Below, piece by piece: positions 316-9,880 of a stretch of 51,078 nucleotides of DNA. The notes beneath the pieces were generated by a model. That model made no database searches. It was not told the DNA's origin and saw nothing but the letters and a program-made list of their open reading frames with translations. A program made the translations under genes and the position numbers. The first letter of the stretch is position 1. Every line of letters starts with the position of its first letter. The stretch is from an uncultured Opitutales bacterium (GTDB lineage: Bacteria; Verrucomicrobiota; Verrucomicrobiia; Opitutales; Seribacteraceae): the NCBI GenBank assembly GCA_938091675.1, contig CALKMX010000080.1, forward strand, positions 1-51,078, in the 5' to 3' direction.

Positions 316-462
316 ATTATTTTAAAGGAATTAGCGTATCTGATAAGTACTTTTGTCCAAGGCAAAAGGACTTTATTTGTGGTTATGTTTTTCGGCTTGG
401 CTAATACTTAGCTCTTTAAGATGCTTAGCTGATGAGATTATTTGCACTTTGTTGCTTTTGCT

Positions 463-3400
463 ATGATTAAGATGAGTAAAGAATCCAAGGTTACCTTTTT
501 ATGCCTCTTATTTATACCGTTCCTTTGGATAGGTTTAAATCATTGGGGTTTTCTCGATTACCTAAAGATAAAAACATTAGATTGGAGGATGCAGTTTAGA
601 GGAGAAATTCCACAGGCCCACTATGCGCACAAGCAAGAAATTGCACTTCCAGACGGGAACAAGATCCCCCGTGTACCCAAGTTAATCTATGTAAATTTTG
701 ATGGTGGGACGCTTGAGATGGACGGGGTAGGAGAAAGACCGTGGGACCGGGCATTCTTTAGAGACACTGCTTTGGCGCTTATTGAAAAAGGAAAGGCGAG
801 GTCATTGGGTTTCGATTTTGGATTTACTCCAAAGAGTATGTCTAGAATGGTACCTAAGGAAAATTCATATCGAAGTGACATTGCTTTGGCTGAGCTTATT
901 CAAAAATATCCAGAGAGAGTGGTTCTTGGCTGTTTATATTCGGGAGTCCAAACATCATATGTAAAGCCAACTGGAGAGAGTGCATTTCCTCCCTTCTTTA
1001 AGGATGGTTATTCTATTAATTCTGGCAAATTTCACTATCCAGAGTCTCCCTCATACCCAATTCTTAGTTATGAGAACCAGTCCTATCTCGGTCGAGTCGG
1101 TTCCTTTACCGTTTCCCCTTACCGGGCGGTTGATGAAATACCAAGGTGGGTCCCCCTTTGGTATTATACAGGCGGCAAGGCACATGCCTATAATCTGTTG
1201 GGGGGTAAGCGAAGTGTATTAGCATACGAACTTCCACGGGATAACAAAGATGCCATTGATTCTCTTCAAAGAGAATTGGGTGGCTACCAAGAAAAAAAAT
1301 TACCGTATCAGCTCAAACTAGCCAGTTTAAATGAAGACCTGGAAGAATTAAAGACTGCCAAATTTGAAAGTGACGAAAGCTTGGAGTATTTCAACACCCG
1401 AAAAGCCAAAATTACTTTGCTAAATGAGGAGATTTCAAACTTTCAAAACACTCTGCAGGCAAACGATAGTCTGCAAGATATTATTGAACCGCAAATAAAC
1501 TCTCGAAAGGCAGAAGTTCAGCAAATCTTGTCCAATATCTTAACAAATGAATCGGAATCAGGGAACAGTGGTCAAAATGCGGAGGAGCTTGCGGTTGAAC
1601 TCCAGAATTTAGCAAGTGAAATTGAAAATTTTCAAAATACTTTGAATCAAAATCCTGTGCTTGCTGCGGTAATCCAACCGCAGTTGGAAATTCGTACAAA
1701 AAGAAGAGACGAACTTTTAGTGCTTATCGCTCAAAAACAAAATAGCTCTTCAGCTGAAATTTCTGGTGAGGAAATGAATCAGGCATTCCTTATTATAGAC
1801 GAAAGAATTGATCTATTGAATAACGCGATCATCTCCAACTTAAGCAAGCTCTCAGCCGTAGTCGAAGAAATCAGTGCTAACCAAGAAAACTTACAAAAGC
1901 TTGAGGATGAGGAGATGCAGAAAAAGCAGCAGTTGGCTAAGCTTACGGGTCAGGTAAAGGCACAGCTTTTCGAAACAAATGATAGTCTGAGGCTAATTTA
2001 TGAAGGAAGCGACAGCGGAGTGAGTGGAGGTATCCTGGTAGATAGTCTGCCCAATGAAGTTCCGCTGCGCCGAGATATAAAAATCTTTGCTTTAGGCGTT
2101 GAGACATTATTGGCGTATTATGGACTCGGGGAGGATGCAGTCGAAATTGATGAGCATTATAATAGTCTTTCCATTGTTCATCCCGAGCATGGAGTTTTGG
2201 TCCAGGCAAACCTTTCAGATGGTCAGTTCCTTGAGGTTAATTGGTTTTCCCAATGGTCTGAAACTCAGGAGGAAAAGCAGTTAACCTTTCAGGCTAAAAG
2301 AGCCTATGTTGATAAAAACTTTGCAGAATATTTAGCTTTAGTTCCCAGAATTATTCGTCTCTTACTATCAAAGGTCGAAAACATTGAGGTGCCTGAAAGC
2401 GATTTAGAACTCCCCAATTGCCTGCAAAACTTGGGTATCGAAAATGAAAAGGTCTTGACCGCGCAATCCCTAATTTCTGCAAAATCGGACGATATTAACA
2501 TCCCCTCTTTCGAAAGCTTTTTCTCCCTGCTCGGTTCTATAAGTTATTACTTCATTCCCCCTAGCATTTTATCTGAGTACAATCCAATGTGCGGCATGGG
2601 AGATGTTTTAGAATATTCCAAGTTTTATGACCAAGTATCCTCATCTATTGCGGATTTGGAAAATAAAATTACTACTCTCCAAAGTGACCAGTATTTGGGC
2701 AGAATTAATCAGGCTCTCGCAAAAGACCCTGACAACAAAACCTTGCTCGGTCAAAAGCAGCAAATATCTGAAGCGGTATCAATCAACCAACAAAACTTAG
2801 CTCTGCAAAAAGAGGAAATGCAAAGAATTCAAGATTTCTTCTCTGCCTTCAATGATTCCATCGTTTTGATCGGGCCGGAAGAAAAAACATTTCAGGACTT
2901 GGCTCCAACTCCACTTGATTCGACAGCTGTACCCAAAGTAAGCGTGCATGGAAATCTGATTAAAACATTAACTTCCGGGGTGTATTTAAAAAGACTCCCC
3001 CTTGCAATAGATCACTTTGCAACCCTTTTTGTCTGTGTCCTGATGGCATTACTGGCCGTGTATCAGGGAAAACGTGCCAGTTTGGTACAGGGTGCTGGAA
3101 TTCTCCTTTTGATTGGATATGTTTATCTCGGATTTGAAACCTTTTCCCAATCTCATATCGTGTGGCCCATTACGGCACCTGCATGTGCAGGCCTTAGTAC
3201 CTCTTTTATTGGGTTGGCTGCAATGGTGGTGATCGAACAAAAAGCAAAGGGGAGATTGAAAGGCATGTTTGGGAGTTATGTGTCGTCCGATTTGGTCGAG
3301 CAAATGGTTGCATCGGGTCAGGAACCTTCCCTTGGAGGTGAGGAAACTGCAATCACCGCCTTCTTTAGCGATGTTCAGGCCTTCTCCAGTTTTTCTGAGC

Positions 3401-4191
3401 TATTAACTCCGACTGGGTTGGTCGATTTGATGAACGAATATTTAACCGCTATGACCAATATTCTGCAGGAAGAGCGTGGAACTTTGGATAAGTATATTGG
3501 AGACGCGATTGTGGCCATGTATGGAGCACCCATTCCTATGGATGACCATGCTTACCAAGCGGTCAGAACTGCAATTCTTATGCAACAAAAGCAGATAGAG
3601 CTAAGGAAAAAATGGGTACCTGAAGTAGAAAAGTGGGGTAAGTGCCACAGTTTGGTCACTCAAATGCAAACCAGAATTGGGTGCAATACGGGAACGGCAA
3701 CGGTTGGTAATATGGGCGCTTTGGACCGTTTTAACTACACCATGATGGGCGATATGGTCAACCTGGCTGCCCGTTGTGAAAGTGGTGCAAAGGCATATGG
3801 AGCCTACATCATGGTGACCGAAGAAACCAAGCTTGCATCGGAGAAAACCCGGGACGACATTGCATTCAGATATTTGGATAGGATAGTGGTTAAGGGAAGA
3901 TCACAGCCCGTAGCCATGTTCGAACCAACCGGATTTATGAATGAACTTTCCCAGGAGACGCAGGATTGCTTGGATTGTTTCCGCCAGGGAATTGATAAAT
4001 ACTTATTACAAGACTGGGATGGGGCTTTAAGTCTTTTTGAAAAAGCAAAAGAAATGGAACCCAACAAACCTGGAGTTACCCCCGGAGTAAAAGACAACCC
4101 ATCGATGATTTTAATTGATCGCTGCAAGGTTATGAAAGAAAATCCTCCAGGCGATGAATGGGACGGGGTTTATGTGATGACCACAAAATAA
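463..4191 (+). CDS. CHASE2-domain class III adenylate cyclase with long coiled-coil insertions
   Basis: Predicted to make cAMP from ATP in response to an extracytoplasmic signal. From the ATG at 463 it has 1242 residues (another ATG is at 472; no clear Shine-Dalgarno for either). TM1 is at about 10-30. A CHASE2 sensor begins near 72 and ends near 845 with the family signature IVLIGP...TP. Three TM segments follow (about 850-925), then the cyclase domain (about 930-1140). Metal ligands are D970 (FFSD) and D1014 (YIGD). K1010 occupies the adenine-specifying position, T1093 (YTMMGD) the place where class IIIa enzymes have Asp, and N1100/R1104 form the NLAAR motif. The Thr is typical of class IIIb, which is often bicarbonate-stimulated. 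The C-terminus (about 1165-1200) looks TPR-like. CHASE2 is normally about 300 residues. Here it is split by coiled-coil material at about 265-515 and a second insert at about 630-795. Confidence 0.9.
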   Translation: MIKMSKESKVTFLCLLFIPFLWIGLNHWGFLDYLKIKTLDWRMQFRGEIPQAHYAHKQEIALPDGNKIPRVPKLIYVNFDGGTLEMDGVGERPWDRAFFRDTALALIEKGKARSLGFDFGFTPKSMSRMVPKENSYRSDIALAELIQKYPERVVLGCLYSGVQTSYVKPTGESAFPPFFKDGYSINSGKFHYPESPSYPILSYENQSYLGRVGSFTVSPYRAVDEIPRWVPLWYYTGGKAHAYNLLGGKRSVLAYELPRDNKDAIDSLQRELGGYQEKKLPYQLKLASLNEDLEELKTAKFESDESLEYFNTRKAKITLLNEEISNFQNTLQANDSLQDIIEPQINSRKAEVQQILSNILTNESESGNSGQNAEELAVELQNLASEIENFQNTLNQNPVLAAVIQPQLEIRTKRRDELLVLIAQKQNSSSAEISGEEMNQAFLIIDERIDLLNNAIISNLSKLSAVVEEISANQENLQKLEDEEMQKKQQLAKLTGQVKAQLFETNDSLRLIYEGSDSGVSGGILVDSLPNEVPLRRDIKIFALGVETLLAYYGLGEDAVEIDEHYNSLSIVHPEHGVLVQANLSDGQFLEVNWFSQWSETQEEKQLTFQAKRAYVDKNFAEYLALVPRIIRLLLSKVENIEVPESDLELPNCLQNLGIENEKVLTAQSLISAKSDDINIPSFESFFSLLGSISYYFIPPSILSEYNPMCGMGDVLEYSKFYDQVSSSIADLENKITTLQSDQYLGRINQALAKDPDNKTLLGQKQQISEAVSINQQNLALQKEEMQRIQDFFSAFNDSIVLIGPEEKTFQDLAPTPLDSTAVPKVSVHGNLIKTLTSGVYLKRLPLAIDHFATLFVCVLMALLAVYQGKRASLVQGAGILLLIGYVYLGFETFSQSHIVWPITAPACAGLSTSFIGLAAMVVIEQKAKGRLKGMFGSYVSSDLVEQMVASGQEPSLGGEETAITAFFSDVQAFSSFSELLTPTGLVDLMNEYLTAMTNILQEERGTLDKYIGDAIVAMYGAPIPMDDHAYQAVRTAILMQQKQIELRKKWVPEVEKWGKCHSLVTQMQTRIGCNTGTATVGNMGALDRFNYTMMGDMVNLAARCESGAKAYGAYIMVTEETKLASEKTRDDIAFRYLDRIVVKGRSQPVAMFEPTGFMNELSQETQDCLDCFRQGIDKYLLQDWDGALSLFEKAKEMEPNKPGVTPGVKDNPSMILIDRCKVMKENPPGDEWDGVYVMTTK
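1432..1743 (+). repeat. 63-residue tandem repeat inside the cyclase coiled coil
   Basis: Two related units lie in the coiled-coil insertion of the cyclase. Both carry the core NFQNTL followed by an (I/V)I-x-PQ(I/L) element and a charged helix. The Phe of the core is encoded at 1441 and again at 1630, exactly 189 bases (63 codons) apart. The two copies differ clearly at the DNA level, so this is an old duplication and not a recent slippage product. Confidence 0.7.
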
Positions 4192-4226: not shown

Positions 4227-4817
4227 TTATTCTTTAGGGACAAAATAGTAAGGCTCATTTCCTTTTTTCCATTTCAAATTGCAACCGAGGCTGGGCTTCT
4301 GGGTGCTGGGGGCAGATTTTCCAGAAATTAGCCTGTTGACCGCATTTGCTAAATCGTCCCCGTTTGGCTCGATCGAATTGCCGGGGCGAGATTCATCAAA
4401 CTGTCCGCGGTAATAGAGTAAATAATTTACATCAAAAAGAAAAAAATCAGGTGTGCATGCAGCACGATATGCATGAGCAACTCTTTGATCCTCATCATAA
4501 AGATAAGGAAAATCAAAGCCTTTTTCTTCCGCTAATTCTTTCATAAGATCTGGGGAGTCAGCTGGATAATTATCTACATCATTGGACGATATAAAAATAA
4601 TTTGCAGTTCTTTTTCCTGCCATTGGTTACACAGATCAGTCAGCGAATCAAGTATGTGGATTACATAAGGACAGTGATTGCAAATGAATGCAATCAAGCA
4701 CCCTTTGTGCAAGGTCTCGTGACTGAATCGAAAAGGAGAGTTATTTCTGGGATTAGGCAAAGTAAAAGCAGGAGCTTTTGTGCCGATTTCCAGCATTGTT
4801 GAATTTGTCGCAACCAT
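4227..4817 (-). CDS. Thioredoxin-fold (AhpC/TSA-like) redox protein
   Basis: A thioredoxin-superfamily protein of 196 residues from the ATG at 4817. The open frame extends further upstream, but only from a TTG inside the PBP2 gene; an ATG at 4796 is also possible. The domain opens with the peroxiredoxin-like GTKAPAFTLPN. It carries C46-N-H-C49-P in place of the thioredoxin CGPC, followed by a TPDFFLFD strand that supplies the cis-proline loop. Such CNHCP proteins are widespread in aquatic bacteria; substrates are largely unknown, and thiol-disulfide exchange or peroxide reduction is inferred. No signal peptide is evident, so it is probably cytoplasmic. It lies 35 bases after the PBP2 stop on the same strand and converges with the cyclase gene. 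Confidence 0.8.
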   Translation of the reverse strand: MVATNSTMLEIGTKAPAFTLPNPRNNSPFRFSHETLHKGCLIAFICNHCPYVIHILDSLTDLCNQWQEKELQIIFISSNDVDNYPADSPDLMKELAEEKGFDFPYLYDEDQRVAHAYRAACTPDFFLFDVNYLLYYRGQFDESRPGNSIEPNGDDLANAVNRLISGKSAPSTQKPSLGCNLKWKKGNEPYYFVPKE

Positions 4818-4851
4818 GGGTTTATCAAGTGATGAAGAGTGAGATAGAATA

Positions 4852-7425
4852 TTATTCAAGTTTAGAGACAGGAGGGGGGTATTTGGCAAAGTAAGCAGCT
4901 AGAAGATCACGAGCAATCGGAGTCGCGGTAAGACCTCCCTGCACCTGATCTTGGGGAATGACTCCTTCAATTAAAACCGAAACTGCAACTTTGGGAGAAT
5001 GGGCGGGAGCAAAACCAACAAACCAGGCCAAGTTTAATTTCATGTTATGATTACGCCACTGACCAGTGCCAGTTTTTCCAGCAATAGATATACCATCAAT
5101 CTGGCACCGTCTGGCTGTGCCCTCCTGAGTTGCTAATACCATACCCTCTAGGATAGCCTGGCGATCTGATTCATCGATAAGGCGGTCTGAATACTTTGGG
5201 CTCTTTTTATTGTTTAGGGTAAGGATCGGATCAAAGGATTTTAAATTCGTTGCTAACTTGGAAATAAAGCATGCCATTTGCAGAGGGCTTTGTCTTAAGC
5301 CACCCTGCCCAATGGAAATATTGAAAGTGTCTTCCATCGTCCATTTAACACCAAGATTATTTTTCTTCCATATTGGGTCTGGTACAATTGGGCTATCCCG
5401 CAGGGAAGGGAGGGTTAAAGAAGGCTTTTGATCCATGCCCACCCTCCTTGCCTCGGAGATCAGTTGTTCATGACCCATTTTCTCAGCACAGCGAAAAAAG
5501 TAGACATTACAGCTTTGGGCAATTGATTGATGGAGATCTAGTTCACCATGCTGTCCCGGATGAACATGGCATTTCATCCCCCGGTAAATGCCTTCACAAA
5601 GCAGCTTTTCTTTGGGGTCCAGTGTGTCAGTACGTAAGCCTGCAAGGGCAGTGACTAATTTAAATGGGGAAGCAGGTGCATAGCCTGGGTGCCAAGCCCT
5701 AGGCAACCAAGCTTCCCGTCTCTGGATTTCGTCGTATGCAGCCTGAGAAATGAAGGGAGTCAAACTGCTCAGATCATAATTTGGTTTACTGGCTAAAGCT
5801 AGAATCTCAAAAGATTCCAGATCTATTAAGACCGCGGCGCCTGGAGGAGGGGGAGGAGGGGCAAGGGTAAAGGCGTTCGGTTTGTTTTCGCCCCGTTGTA
5901 ATACGCCCTGTGCATATAAGTGCCTGAGCAGTCGATTTGCATCCACCTCTGTACCTTTAAAGCCTGCGACAGTTGAGGCTTGCTGTCCAGTTAAGGGAAA
6001 GGGGGCATCTTTAAATGCGGATAATAACAATTCGGCCCTGACCTCTGTTTCGTTGGTTCCAATTAAGGCACGCGCTGTTCTTCTTTCTAGCGTTTTTGCC
6101 CAGTCTTGATCGGGTAATATTCTTTGCTCCGCAACTTTATAAACCATTCGATCAATCGAATCTTCAGCAATCTTCTGGAGTTGAAGGTCCAGGGTTAGCT
6201 GAATGGATTTTCCTTTCTCGGAGGGCTGTCTTTCCACCCTCTCAAACCTTGAGCCCATTGGATTGACCAGCCAAATATCAACCCCGTCTTTTCCGCGCAG
6301 TTGATCATCAAAAGTTCTTTCAATGCCCGCTTTGCCAGTTCTGCCCTGTAATTCAAAAGTGGCTAAGTCTGACCCCGATTGAGTTTCAGGATTGGCTTCA
6401 TAACCGCTGCCAACATAGCCCAAAACATGAGATGCTAAGTAGTTATGAGGGTAATGCCTAACAGCTTTGGCTTGTACTTGAATGGGAGAGTCTGGAGGCA
6501 ATTTCTCAATTAATAGAGCATATTCTTCATTGGTTAAGTCTCCGCAAATTTCAAGTGGTAAGACCAACTTACTCCTCCAATGCTTTTGTAATTCGCTCAA
6601 ACTTATCTCACTATTTCGTCCCGTGAGCTTATTTACTTTGGCTAAATAATTCTGAACGACTGTATATCTTGCTTCCCAGGAGTGCGAAAATCCACTAGCC
6701 GAAAACTTTAAATAATCTGTCCCTGAATGATTAAAGATACGGTCATACCAGTTGAGGTCTTTCTCAATAATGCTGGTTTTAGGAACGGGGACACCGTTAA
6801 GGTCGAGGCCGAAATTTAATGCAAAAAGTCCAGCAACATTAACAATAATTTCTTTTTCTGCTCCTTCAAAGCGAACTAATGAAGAATAAGAATTAACTAA
6901 ATTAGATTTAGAGATCTCAGCACTCCACAAGTTTCCCTTTCTGCTGGTATGGATAGGTTTGTTATCAATCCACAATTGTGCCCGTTTTGATGAGGGTGAT
7001 ACTTTCCCAGAAATTTTAATCTTTCTTTTGATTACATGGTCTTGCTGAAAACAAAGGGTCAGGAGTTTTTCCAAGCTTATCTTATTAAATTGGCTCAATT
7101 GATCCCTCATCGCATAGGAGATTCTCCTTATGTTAATTTTTTCTGCCCATATTTCTTGAGCAAGAAGTTCAAGATGTAGGTTTGCGGAATAATGTGCACG
7201 GTTTCCGATGAGTAGATGGTTATGCCGGTCAAAAACATCTCCCCTCGCTCCGGGTCTTACAATTCTTCGCTGTCCTTGTTTCCTTTCTTTTTCTGCATAT
7301 TCATCTTGCTCGACCACCTGTCTAAAGAAAAGAACGCTCAGTAGACTCATGAACAGCATAAGATAAATCCAGGCAAATATCCTGAACCTTCTGGCTTCAG
7401 GAAAGTATTTCTCAAAAAATTTCAT
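4852..7425 (-). CDS. mrdA: Penicillin-binding protein 2, elongasome transpeptidase
   Basis: Class B PBP that cross-links peptidoglycan during rod elongation, working with RodA and MreBCD. The start is set by the ATGA overlap with the mreD stop (ATG 7425-7423), giving 857 residues; the open frame continues upstream but has no need of it. A TM helix lies at about 15-35, followed by the pedestal domain with the RPGARGDVFDRH motif. The catalytic motifs are intact: S586-P-F-K589, S638-C-N, K784-T-G. At 857 residues it is well above the usual 600-650. Extra sequence sits in the N-terminal region (about 130-230) and between the TLDLQLQKIAE helix (about 410) and the GAAVLID strand (about 528). That second insert ends in a run of six prolines. 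Confidence 0.95.
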   Translation of the reverse strand: MKFFEKYFPEARRFRIFAWIYLMLFMSLLSVLFFRQVVEQDEYAEKERKQGQRRIVRPGARGDVFDRHNHLLIGNRAHYSANLHLELLAQEIWAEKINIRRISYAMRDQLSQFNKISLEKLLTLCFQQDHVIKRKIKISGKVSPSSKRAQLWIDNKPIHTSRKGNLWSAEISKSNLVNSYSSLVRFEGAEKEIIVNVAGLFALNFGLDLNGVPVPKTSIIEKDLNWYDRIFNHSGTDYLKFSASGFSHSWEARYTVVQNYLAKVNKLTGRNSEISLSELQKHWRSKLVLPLEICGDLTNEEYALLIEKLPPDSPIQVQAKAVRHYPHNYLASHVLGYVGSGYEANPETQSGSDLATFELQGRTGKAGIERTFDDQLRGKDGVDIWLVNPMGSRFERVERQPSEKGKSIQLTLDLQLQKIAEDSIDRMVYKVAEQRILPDQDWAKTLERRTARALIGTNETEVRAELLLSAFKDAPFPLTGQQASTVAGFKGTEVDANRLLRHLYAQGVLQRGENKPNAFTLAPPPPPPGAAVLIDLESFEILALASKPNYDLSSLTPFISQAAYDEIQRREAWLPRAWHPGYAPASPFKLVTALAGLRTDTLDPKEKLLCEGIYRGMKCHVHPGQHGELDLHQSIAQSCNVYFFRCAEKMGHEQLISEARRVGMDQKPSLTLPSLRDSPIVPDPIWKKNNLGVKWTMEDTFNISIGQGGLRQSPLQMACFISKLATNLKSFDPILTLNNKKSPKYSDRLIDESDRQAILEGMVLATQEGTARRCQIDGISIAGKTGTGQWRNHNMKLNLAWFVGFAPAHSPKVAVSVLIEGVIPQDQVQGGLTATPIARDLLAAYFAKYPPPVSKLE

Positions 7426-7955
7426 TTTGAGGGAGTGATGATTCGACGTAATGAAGGTTCGAAACGATAGACAAGTTCGTTGCAAAACTTAATATACCAA
7501 TACGAAATAGGAATAAGAAGTAAGGCAGAAATAAGAATATCGCTCATAAACCTGCTTAAATACCAGTTCCCATTTTCAGGGTTGTCCAATCCACATAAAA
7601 GAAACCACAGGACCGCTAGGATAAAATTAGTGGTCTGTTGATAAAGGATTATAAATTTAGGATTTTGTTTACCCGAACGAATGAATTCCTTGGAAACAAG
7701 AAAGATTAATCCAAAGAAGAAAGCATGAAACCCAAGACTATGATTTAAAAAATGATCCCAAATAAAACCGCTTAAAAGCAAAGATACCACGCCACGATAA
7801 GAATCCAGCAATTGATATTGAGGAATAATAAGTAAACCGGGCAGATAGACAAAAATGCCCCATGGATTAAACACAGAATTTAGCAGGGCAACACACCATA
7901 TCACAAAAAAGTTAGAGCCTGTTAGTAAAAGCAGATAAAGGTTAGATTTATTCAT
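7422..7955 (-). CDS. mreD: Rod shape-determining protein MreD
   Basis: A small polytopic inner-membrane protein of 177 residues with about five hydrophobic segments, starting at residues 5-25. Sequence alone is weakly conserved in this family. The identification rests on size, topology and position between mreC (8 bases upstream) and PBP2 (overlapping by 4 bases). It probably links the MreC/MreB scaffold with the RodA-PBP2 synthase. Confidence 0.85.
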   Translation of the reverse strand: MNKSNLYLLLLTGSNFFVIWCVALLNSVFNPWGIFVYLPGLLIIPQYQLLDSYRGVVSLLLSGFIWDHFLNHSLGFHAFFFGLIFLVSKEFIRSGKQNPKFIILYQQTTNFILAVLWFLLCGLDNPENGNWYLSRFMSDILISALLLIPISYWYIKFCNELVYRFEPSLRRIITPSK

Positions 7956-7963
7956 CTGTCCAC

Positions 7964-8827
7964 TTACCTGCCTTCTTCGGGTACAAGTACGGTGACCTCA
8001 GAAACTTTGCCTAGATTTTGGGATAAATAAACTTTGCCAGTCTTGAACAAACCGTCGCCACTATCCTCAAGGAAGTTGACCATACCAATTGGCAAACCTC
8101 CAGGAAAGGTCCCACCAAGTGCTGAGGTTTCCAGAAGCAGTCTACTGTTATTAGGTATTTGAATATCATGGGGCACATCGAGGACCACGCCCATAGGTCG
8201 CCCACCTAATAAAATCCCCGAACCCTGAAAAGTAACAGGTCTGTCATCTCCTTTAAAATGCGCAACAATTCGGAAACTTGGATTTGTGGCAAGTTCAACC
8301 CCAGATGAATTTAAACCTGCTTGATGGACACGCCCGACAATACCGTCTGAGTGAATTACGCCTAAACCCGGAGAAAGTTTTTGTTTAGTTCCTTTCCGAA
8401 GAGATAACTCTTGCCACCACGAGCTCAGGTGGCGATGGGTCACTCGGGCAATTACAGGTCGATAAGCAATCTCAGCATCCAGGCCAATTTTTTGTTCCAA
8501 GGCTTCTAACTCGGATTGTATGGTGTTAAGCTTTACAAGTTCATTTTCCCATTTTTCAAGAAGGTTTTCCTGAAGATTCCAATCTGCCCTAATCCTGGAA
8601 AGGTCTCGGTTCTTTGCTATGAGCGTTTTTTTTGAATCCGAGCGATGTCCCCAATAATCGGTTAGGTCTTTAATTCTTGAGGTGATTTCCCACGCGGGTG
8701 CCTCAAACTCTTCGAATGTCGATTGAATTAATGCCTTCCAAGCGGAGGGCATGGTAATAAAGACCAAAAAGAATAACCCTAAAGCCAGAAAGGGTCCGAA
8801 TTTGGGCCTGTCCTGCGGAGCGGCCAA
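7964..8827 (-). CDS. mreC: Rod shape-determining protein MreC
   Basis: Bitopic protein of 287 residues: a short cytoplasmic tail, a TM at about 12-32, a coiled coil at about 60-115, then the periplasmic double beta-barrel domain with the typical VIARVTHR entry, SPGLGVIHSDGIVGRV loop and a G-S-G-ILLGG turn. MreC scaffolds PBP2 and couples it to MreB. The start codon appears to be TTG (8827-8825), because the next Met lies inside the TM; there is no clear Shine-Dalgarno. It begins 9 bases after the mreB stop. Confidence 0.93.
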   Translation of the reverse strand: MAAPQDRPKFGPFLALGLFFLVFITMPSAWKALIQSTFEEFEAPAWEITSRIKDLTDYWGHRSDSKKTLIAKNRDLSRIRADWNLQENLLEKWENELVKLNTIQSELEALEQKIGLDAEIAYRPVIARVTHRHLSSWWQELSLRKGTKQKLSPGLGVIHSDGIVGRVHQAGLNSSGVELATNPSFRIVAHFKGDDRPVTFQGSGILLGGRPMGVVLDVPHDIQIPNNSRLLLETSALGGTFPGGLPIGMVNFLEDSGDGLFKTGKVYLSQNLGKVSEVTVLVPEEGR

Positions 8828-8836
8828 AAGGAAAAA

Positions 8837-9880
<1,044 letters not shown>

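Follow-up and report, generated by a model that had tools for sequence, protein, structure and literature searches.

A family-wide insert with a predicted winged-helix fold in the transpeptidase domain of an Opitutales PBP2

The PBP2 gene and its surroundings

The window analysed here, a 51,078-nucleotide stretch of DNA from an uncultured Opitutales bacterium, encodes a class B penicillin-binding protein (PBP) next to genes of the mre cluster (Table 1). The probable start of the PBP is the ATG at 7425 (MKFFEKYF), and several relatives start alike. Pfam matched the product above the cut-off to both PBP_dimer (PF03717, E 3.6e-24) and Transpeptidase (PF00905, E 1.6e-44), and the catalytic part of a full-length model was similar to solved PBPs, including E. 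coli PBP3 (6i1i; Z 31.6, 284 residues, 2.7 Å). The SPFK, SCN and KTGT sequences represent the SxxK, SxN and KTG active-site motifs and are kept across the family. By far the best NCBIfam match was TIGR03423 (pbp2_mrdA), with a score of 372.5 bits against a cut-off of 455, which marks the protein as a diverged PBP2 and, by that rule, not as a TIGR03423 equivalog. Judged by its sequence, the protein, whose catalytic motifs are intact, is an Opitutales family's PBP2, the transpeptidase of cell elongation, and its partner would presumably be RodA.

Table 1. Features of the PBP2 locus; residues are numbered along the 877-aa open reading frame unless stated otherwise.
Feature	Position	Strand	Remarks
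PBP2 (MrdA-like class B penicillin-binding protein) ORF	4852-7485	minus	877 aa
Sole N-terminal membrane helix, residues 36-54	7324-7380	minus	hydropathy peak; helix 10-38 in MKFF-numbered model
Second, variable insert in head subdomain, residues ~136-255	6721-7080	minus	beta-rich core ~6805-7020
100-residue insert between first helix and first strand of transpeptidase domain, residues ~447-547	5845-6147	minus	
Helix preceding the winged helix, residues 460-474	6064-6108	minus	conserved W
Predicted winged-helix domain	5863-6045	minus	H1 481-492, H2 500-507, H3 513-525, wing strands 529-531 and 539-541
Proline-rich link PPPPPP, residues 543-548	5842-5859	minus	leads back into transpeptidase domain
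Catalytic motif span, SPFK (606), SCN (658), KTGT (804)	5065-5670	minus	all present
mreD	7422-7955	minus	directly upstream of PBP2, same direction
mreC	7964-8827	minus	upstream of PBP2, same direction
mreB	8837-9877	minus	upstream of PBP2, same direction

An AhpC/TSA redoxin gene (4227-4889) lies immediately behind PBP2. Each of the 15 further family loci compared has a match to it, which in at least 11 of them immediately follows PBP2; outside the family, a clear match was found in one of 32 stretches (L185), many of which are short, and there it likewise lies behind PBP2. A gene for a CHASE2-adenylate/guanylate cyclase of ~1250 aa (442-4191) runs convergent to the operon and also had a match in each of the 15 other family loci compared.

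Place and make-up of the inserts

The initial annotation had placed about 85–100 extra residues, ending in six prolines, between a DLQLQKIAE helix and a GAAVLID strand at positions 5820-6200, and these positions coincide with the insert and its flanks. In PBP2, DLQLQKIAE begins at residue 433, PPPPPP at 543 and GAAVLID at 549. The stretch from SIQLTLDLQLQ to LALASKPNY has a length of 144 residues, compared to 44 in each of the 21 non-family Opitutales genes recovered by script (22 tried), giving an excess of 100 residues at the top of the proposed range. Three alignments to solved PBP2 proteins, among the matches listed, end at residues 439–443 and resume at 548–549, skipping the stretch between, and full-protein matches from other Opitutales and other classes end near 445 and restart near 548, where both pieces were given among the matches listed. 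The insert consists of a helix with a conserved tryptophan, a compact core containing an ASTVAGF run and a proline-rich link; ASTVAGF and GVL are its invariant runs. The six consecutive prolines present here are missing from some family members, and the constant element is a short proline-rich link with two invariant prolines. No segment following the N-terminal hydrophobic one exceeded 1.6 in hydropathy, which would put the insert outside the membrane, in agreement with the location outside the cytoplasm proposed before.

A second insert, closer to the N-terminus and absent from the initial annotation, was found in the region for which we adopt the name head subdomain as used in PMC9974482. 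The head stretch comprises 193–224 residues in seven family genes, compared to 84–132 in 21 other Opitutales genes, and residues ~136–255 form eight short strands in the full-length model (block pLDDT 74–90). The modelled insert gives the impression, and only that, of an Ig-like domain; searches of Pfam and of PDB sequences returned no convincing relative.

Predicted fold of the transpeptidase-domain insert

AlphaFold2 modelling of the insert, using 27 sequences, gave a best model with a mean pLDDT of 75.0, and 60.0–63.5 for the other four. With core blocks at 76–88, the insert is predicted to be folded rather than disordered. The best model has two helices followed by a helix (48–59), a short strand, two helices (67–74 and 80–92) and two strands (96–98 and 106–108), and the modelled order H1-S1-H2-H3-S2-S3 is that of a winged helix. 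The same helices and wing appeared in the full-length model at lower confidence (pTM 0.48). Foldseek searches of the PDB returned mostly winged-helix regulators, with E values of 0.011–0.055 among the matches listed (best 0.011). When the Foldseek candidates were aligned with VIA-align, Campylobacter Fur (4ets_A) ranked first with Z 10.3 and 2.3 Å over 85 residues, followed by other Fur proteins and then by Z-alpha and IclR domains; most rows of this Z-ranked list are, judging from their titles, proteins that we take to be winged-helix proteins. VIA-align commonly yields a top Z of 7–8 even when no real match exists, and for helical bundles its caution line lies near 13. With Z at 10.3 against this caution line, and no Foldseek E below 0.01, the winged-helix fold suggested in the initial annotation is supported by topology and structural neighbours but, with one good model of five, not proven.

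Sequence comparisons gave no significant profile match to Pfam or PDB sequences. Among the 27 insert rows compared to Pfam at E ≤ 10, that of the source genome had no match, no Fur, MarR or IclR family was among the 12 listed, and the regulator-type matches were TrmB (0.16, one row) and CtsR_C (0.0056, two rows). Eight sub-threshold matches to PDB sequences (E 0.075–1.6) include four to proteins that contain winged helices, namely SelB twice, FtsK gamma and an ADAR Z-alpha chimaera. A search of viral structures gave no E below 0.0086, with generic helix-turn-helix proteins among the rows. The net charge of helix 3 is close to zero (mean +0.5, range −2 to +2, 27 rows), and that of the whole insert averages +2.8 (range −3 to +7). 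DNA binding is thus unlikely, given the near-neutral helix 3 and the predicted outer-side location, and the mean charge of the insert would by itself be compatible with a polyanionic ligand.

Distribution, constraint and descent

A profile search detected the insert (E < 1e-40) in 38 of the 42 genomes of its own GTDB family within the Opitutales, an apparently marine family judging from sample names. The remaining four are explained by a PBP2 gene that is absent or broken off before the insertion site: two had no PBP match (G025 and G028), one an FtsI-like match only (G027) and one a fragment ending before the site (G036). With the same insert at the same site in 38 genomes, an artefact, a frameshift or a single-genome oddity was ruled out. 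In the most diverged genus (g4, two genomes) the insert is found at the same place with 28% identity and is 3–4 residues longer; the AST..GF run is lost there and the helix pattern is kept. One genome (G038) carries the insert in each of two PBP2 genes, which would reflect either duplication or contamination (3%).

Outside the family, no insert was found in 62 class B PBP genes, picked among the full-protein matches listed, from 61 other Verrucomicrobiota genomes, which have 0–10 residues at the junction. The insert is therefore no ordinary PBP2 feature as far as solved PBP2 proteins and the other Opitutales and Verrucomicrobiota genes examined are concerned, in line with the initial annotation, which had treated it as atypical. 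Several long class B PBP ORFs of non-family Verrucomicrobiota (790–933 aa; L134, L142, L139, L166 and others) lack the insert at this site and thus carry other extensions. At E ≤ 0.001, profile A1 matched eight of 103 genomes of the order, all eight in the family and none among the 95 from other families, and one of 188 genomes of the class, the source genome itself, with none of the 187 others; profile A3 at the same threshold matched one of 288 genomes of the phylum, again the source genome, and none of the 287 others (the three samples overlap). A scan for two conserved peptides in contigs of 84,980 species, which would overlook divergence like that of g4, returned 35 loci, all from Verrucomicrobiota by title (Opitutales, Opitutia or Verrucomicrobia). 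The insert is restricted to the family within the genomes searched.

A domain elsewhere from which the insert could have been borrowed was also sought, and was rejected on the matches found in other genomes of the class. Profile A4 at E ≤ 0.1 matched eight of 383 other genomes of the class, all weakly (best 0.0016), and three of these matches, identified by eye as an RNase R N-terminus and two ~1000-aa restriction-helicase-like ORFs, were taken as chance. Relaxed to E ≤ 10, this profile picked up five additional weak matches in four family genomes (E 0.24–0.68).

Conservation of the insert comes close to that of the catalytic domain: among 33 sequences (g4 left aside) the insert has a mean all-pairs identity of 0.595, the transpeptidase domain one of 0.639 and the pedestal one of 0.562. 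The head insert, at 0.267, is more variable. Across 32 sequences, distances in the insert correlate at r = 0.89 with those in the transpeptidase domain, and this, together with the high identity, fits a single gain followed by vertical descent under strong constraint. Most simply, a single insertion in the family's ancestor would have brought a winged-helix domain into the transpeptidase domain, and the head subdomain would have acquired its beta-rich domain in that lineage too.

A link between the insert and a loss of class A PBPs was considered and ruled out. The source genome (91% complete) encodes only two PF00905 proteins, PBP2 and a 606-aa ORF, and no Transgly domain (PF00912) was found in it. 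PF00912 was detected in 10 of the 42 family genomes (one a fragment) compared to one of 33 other Opitutales, leaving 64 of 75 without it; its lack is general in the order, independently of the insert. Because many of the genomes are incomplete, its absence from any single one carries little weight. PMC8406291 reports that class A PBPs have been lost in the PVC group.

Possible role of the insert

According to PMC10257715, RodA-PBP2 alternates between states with a closed and a raised catalytic domain, MreC is proposed to favour the raised state via the pedestal, and how the complex is activated is still being worked out. If motion of the transpeptidase domain controls RodA-PBP2, with MreC probably acting on it, a domain added there would have a target on which to act. 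We put at roughly 0.45, slightly below even, the probability that the insert is a family-ancestral winged helix, its fold predicted from models, that serves as a docking surface for a protein of the elongation machinery or the envelope. From its position outside the membrane the insert would dock another such protein, and RodA-PBP2 would be recruited or switched through a contact that other bacteria lack. A protein-protein module, as proposed in the initial annotation, is plausible. The proline-rich link, called a hinge there, would keep the winged helix apart from the catalytic core, and may equally well be a stiff spacer. Somewhat more tentatively, we suggest that a winged helix of the DNA-binding type was co-opted for an extracytoplasmic role, built into PBP2 as a module for docking or switching and providing family-specific control of RodA-PBP2. 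Judged by ORF length, a crude measure, the family's MreB, MreC and MreD are of normal size and show no added domain; the MreC comparison drew on 36 of 38 family loci and nine of 10 others. The source genome has two SEDS genes, and the RodA candidate, taken as the longer of the two SEDS ORFs per genome, has 406–428 aa in 15 family genomes compared to 419–477 aa in 10 others. With such ordinary MreB, MreC, MreD and RodA lengths, a partner, if there is one, does not stand out by such a domain, and the loss of the AST..GF run in g4 implies that a partner surface would not span the whole family.

The absence of a matching added domain from MreB, MreC, MreD and the RodA candidate counts against docking and would suit a brace internal to the complex, in which the winged helix packs on the pedestal, the head insert or RodA and thereby sets the height of the catalytic domain above the membrane. 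Such a brace would agree with the co-occurrence of both added domains throughout the family, its most diverged genus included, and with the insertion site, which follows the pedestal in sequence by one helix; raising of the catalytic domain is moreover the proposed control point in PMC10257715. However, a contact between the two inserts would predict similar constraint on both, in conflict with the weak conservation of one and the strong conservation of the other, and the full-length model is too weak for domain placement at its pTM of 0.48. We regard a brace as unlikely, though the nearest competitor, and rank docking above it, both being inferred. Less probable still is a structural extra with no specific partner, retained once it had become part of the fold. 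The helix and proline-rich link that tie the insert to the catalytic domain, and identity distances that track those of this domain, are what such an extra would be expected to show, but the long invariant runs (ASTVAGF and GVL) appear, in our judgement, to go beyond the needs of packing.

Binding of a non-protein ligand outside the cytoplasm, i.e. cell-wall glycan, peptide or nucleic acid, appears the most improbable of the readings: although the nearest folds are nucleic-acid binders, Z-alpha included, and the insert as a whole is slightly basic on average (+2.8), its recognition helix is not basic, its topology turns it away from the cytoplasm and Pfam gave no convincing match to a ligand-binding family. 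A further doubt concerns the fold itself and overlaps these functional readings, and our estimates are therefore not meant to sum to one. The insert could be some other small helical domain over-read as a winged helix, in keeping with the low mean pLDDT of four of the five AlphaFold2 models, the lack of any Foldseek E below 0.011 and a Z near 10, under the caution line for helical bundles. Against this, wing strands occur in both the insert and the full-length models, the Z-ranked list consists, by title, mostly of winged-helix proteins, and the g4 sequences keep the pattern by eye at 28% identity, and we consider a different fold quite improbable.

Comparison with known systems

Cell elongation centres on RodA-PBP2, which beta-lactams also target, and a conserved extra domain that a whole family carries in its PBP2, within the catalytic half, constitutes a natural experiment that may mark the site of a possible controlling contact. 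A winged helix outside the cytoplasm, within a cell-wall enzyme, would be in an unusual place. We found no published description of such a PBP2 insert in the literature on PBPs, RodA-MreC and winged helices, consulted mostly as texts available without subscription.

The family protein resembles PBP2/MrdA in its PBP_dimer and Transpeptidase domains, the SxxK, SxN and KTG motifs, its single membrane helix, the adjoining mreBCD genes and its best NCBIfam match, but differs in bearing two inserted domains of ~100 and ~120 residues and in scoring below the TIGR03423 cut-off. With the winged helices of Fur (Z 10.3), Z-alpha, IclR and MarR/ArsR, the insert shares its predicted succession of helices and wing strands; unlike winged-helix DNA-binding domains, it has no basic recognition helix and lies within an extracytoplasmic enzyme, and the insert of the source genome has no Pfam match (E ≤ 10). 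Other PBPs carry accessory domains such as UB2H and PASTA, extra folded modules on cell-wall synthases that are often regulatory and whose folds differ from that predicted for the PBP2 insert. In contrast to these, the module of the Opitutales family sits inside the catalytic domain itself, where it separates the first helix from the first strand.
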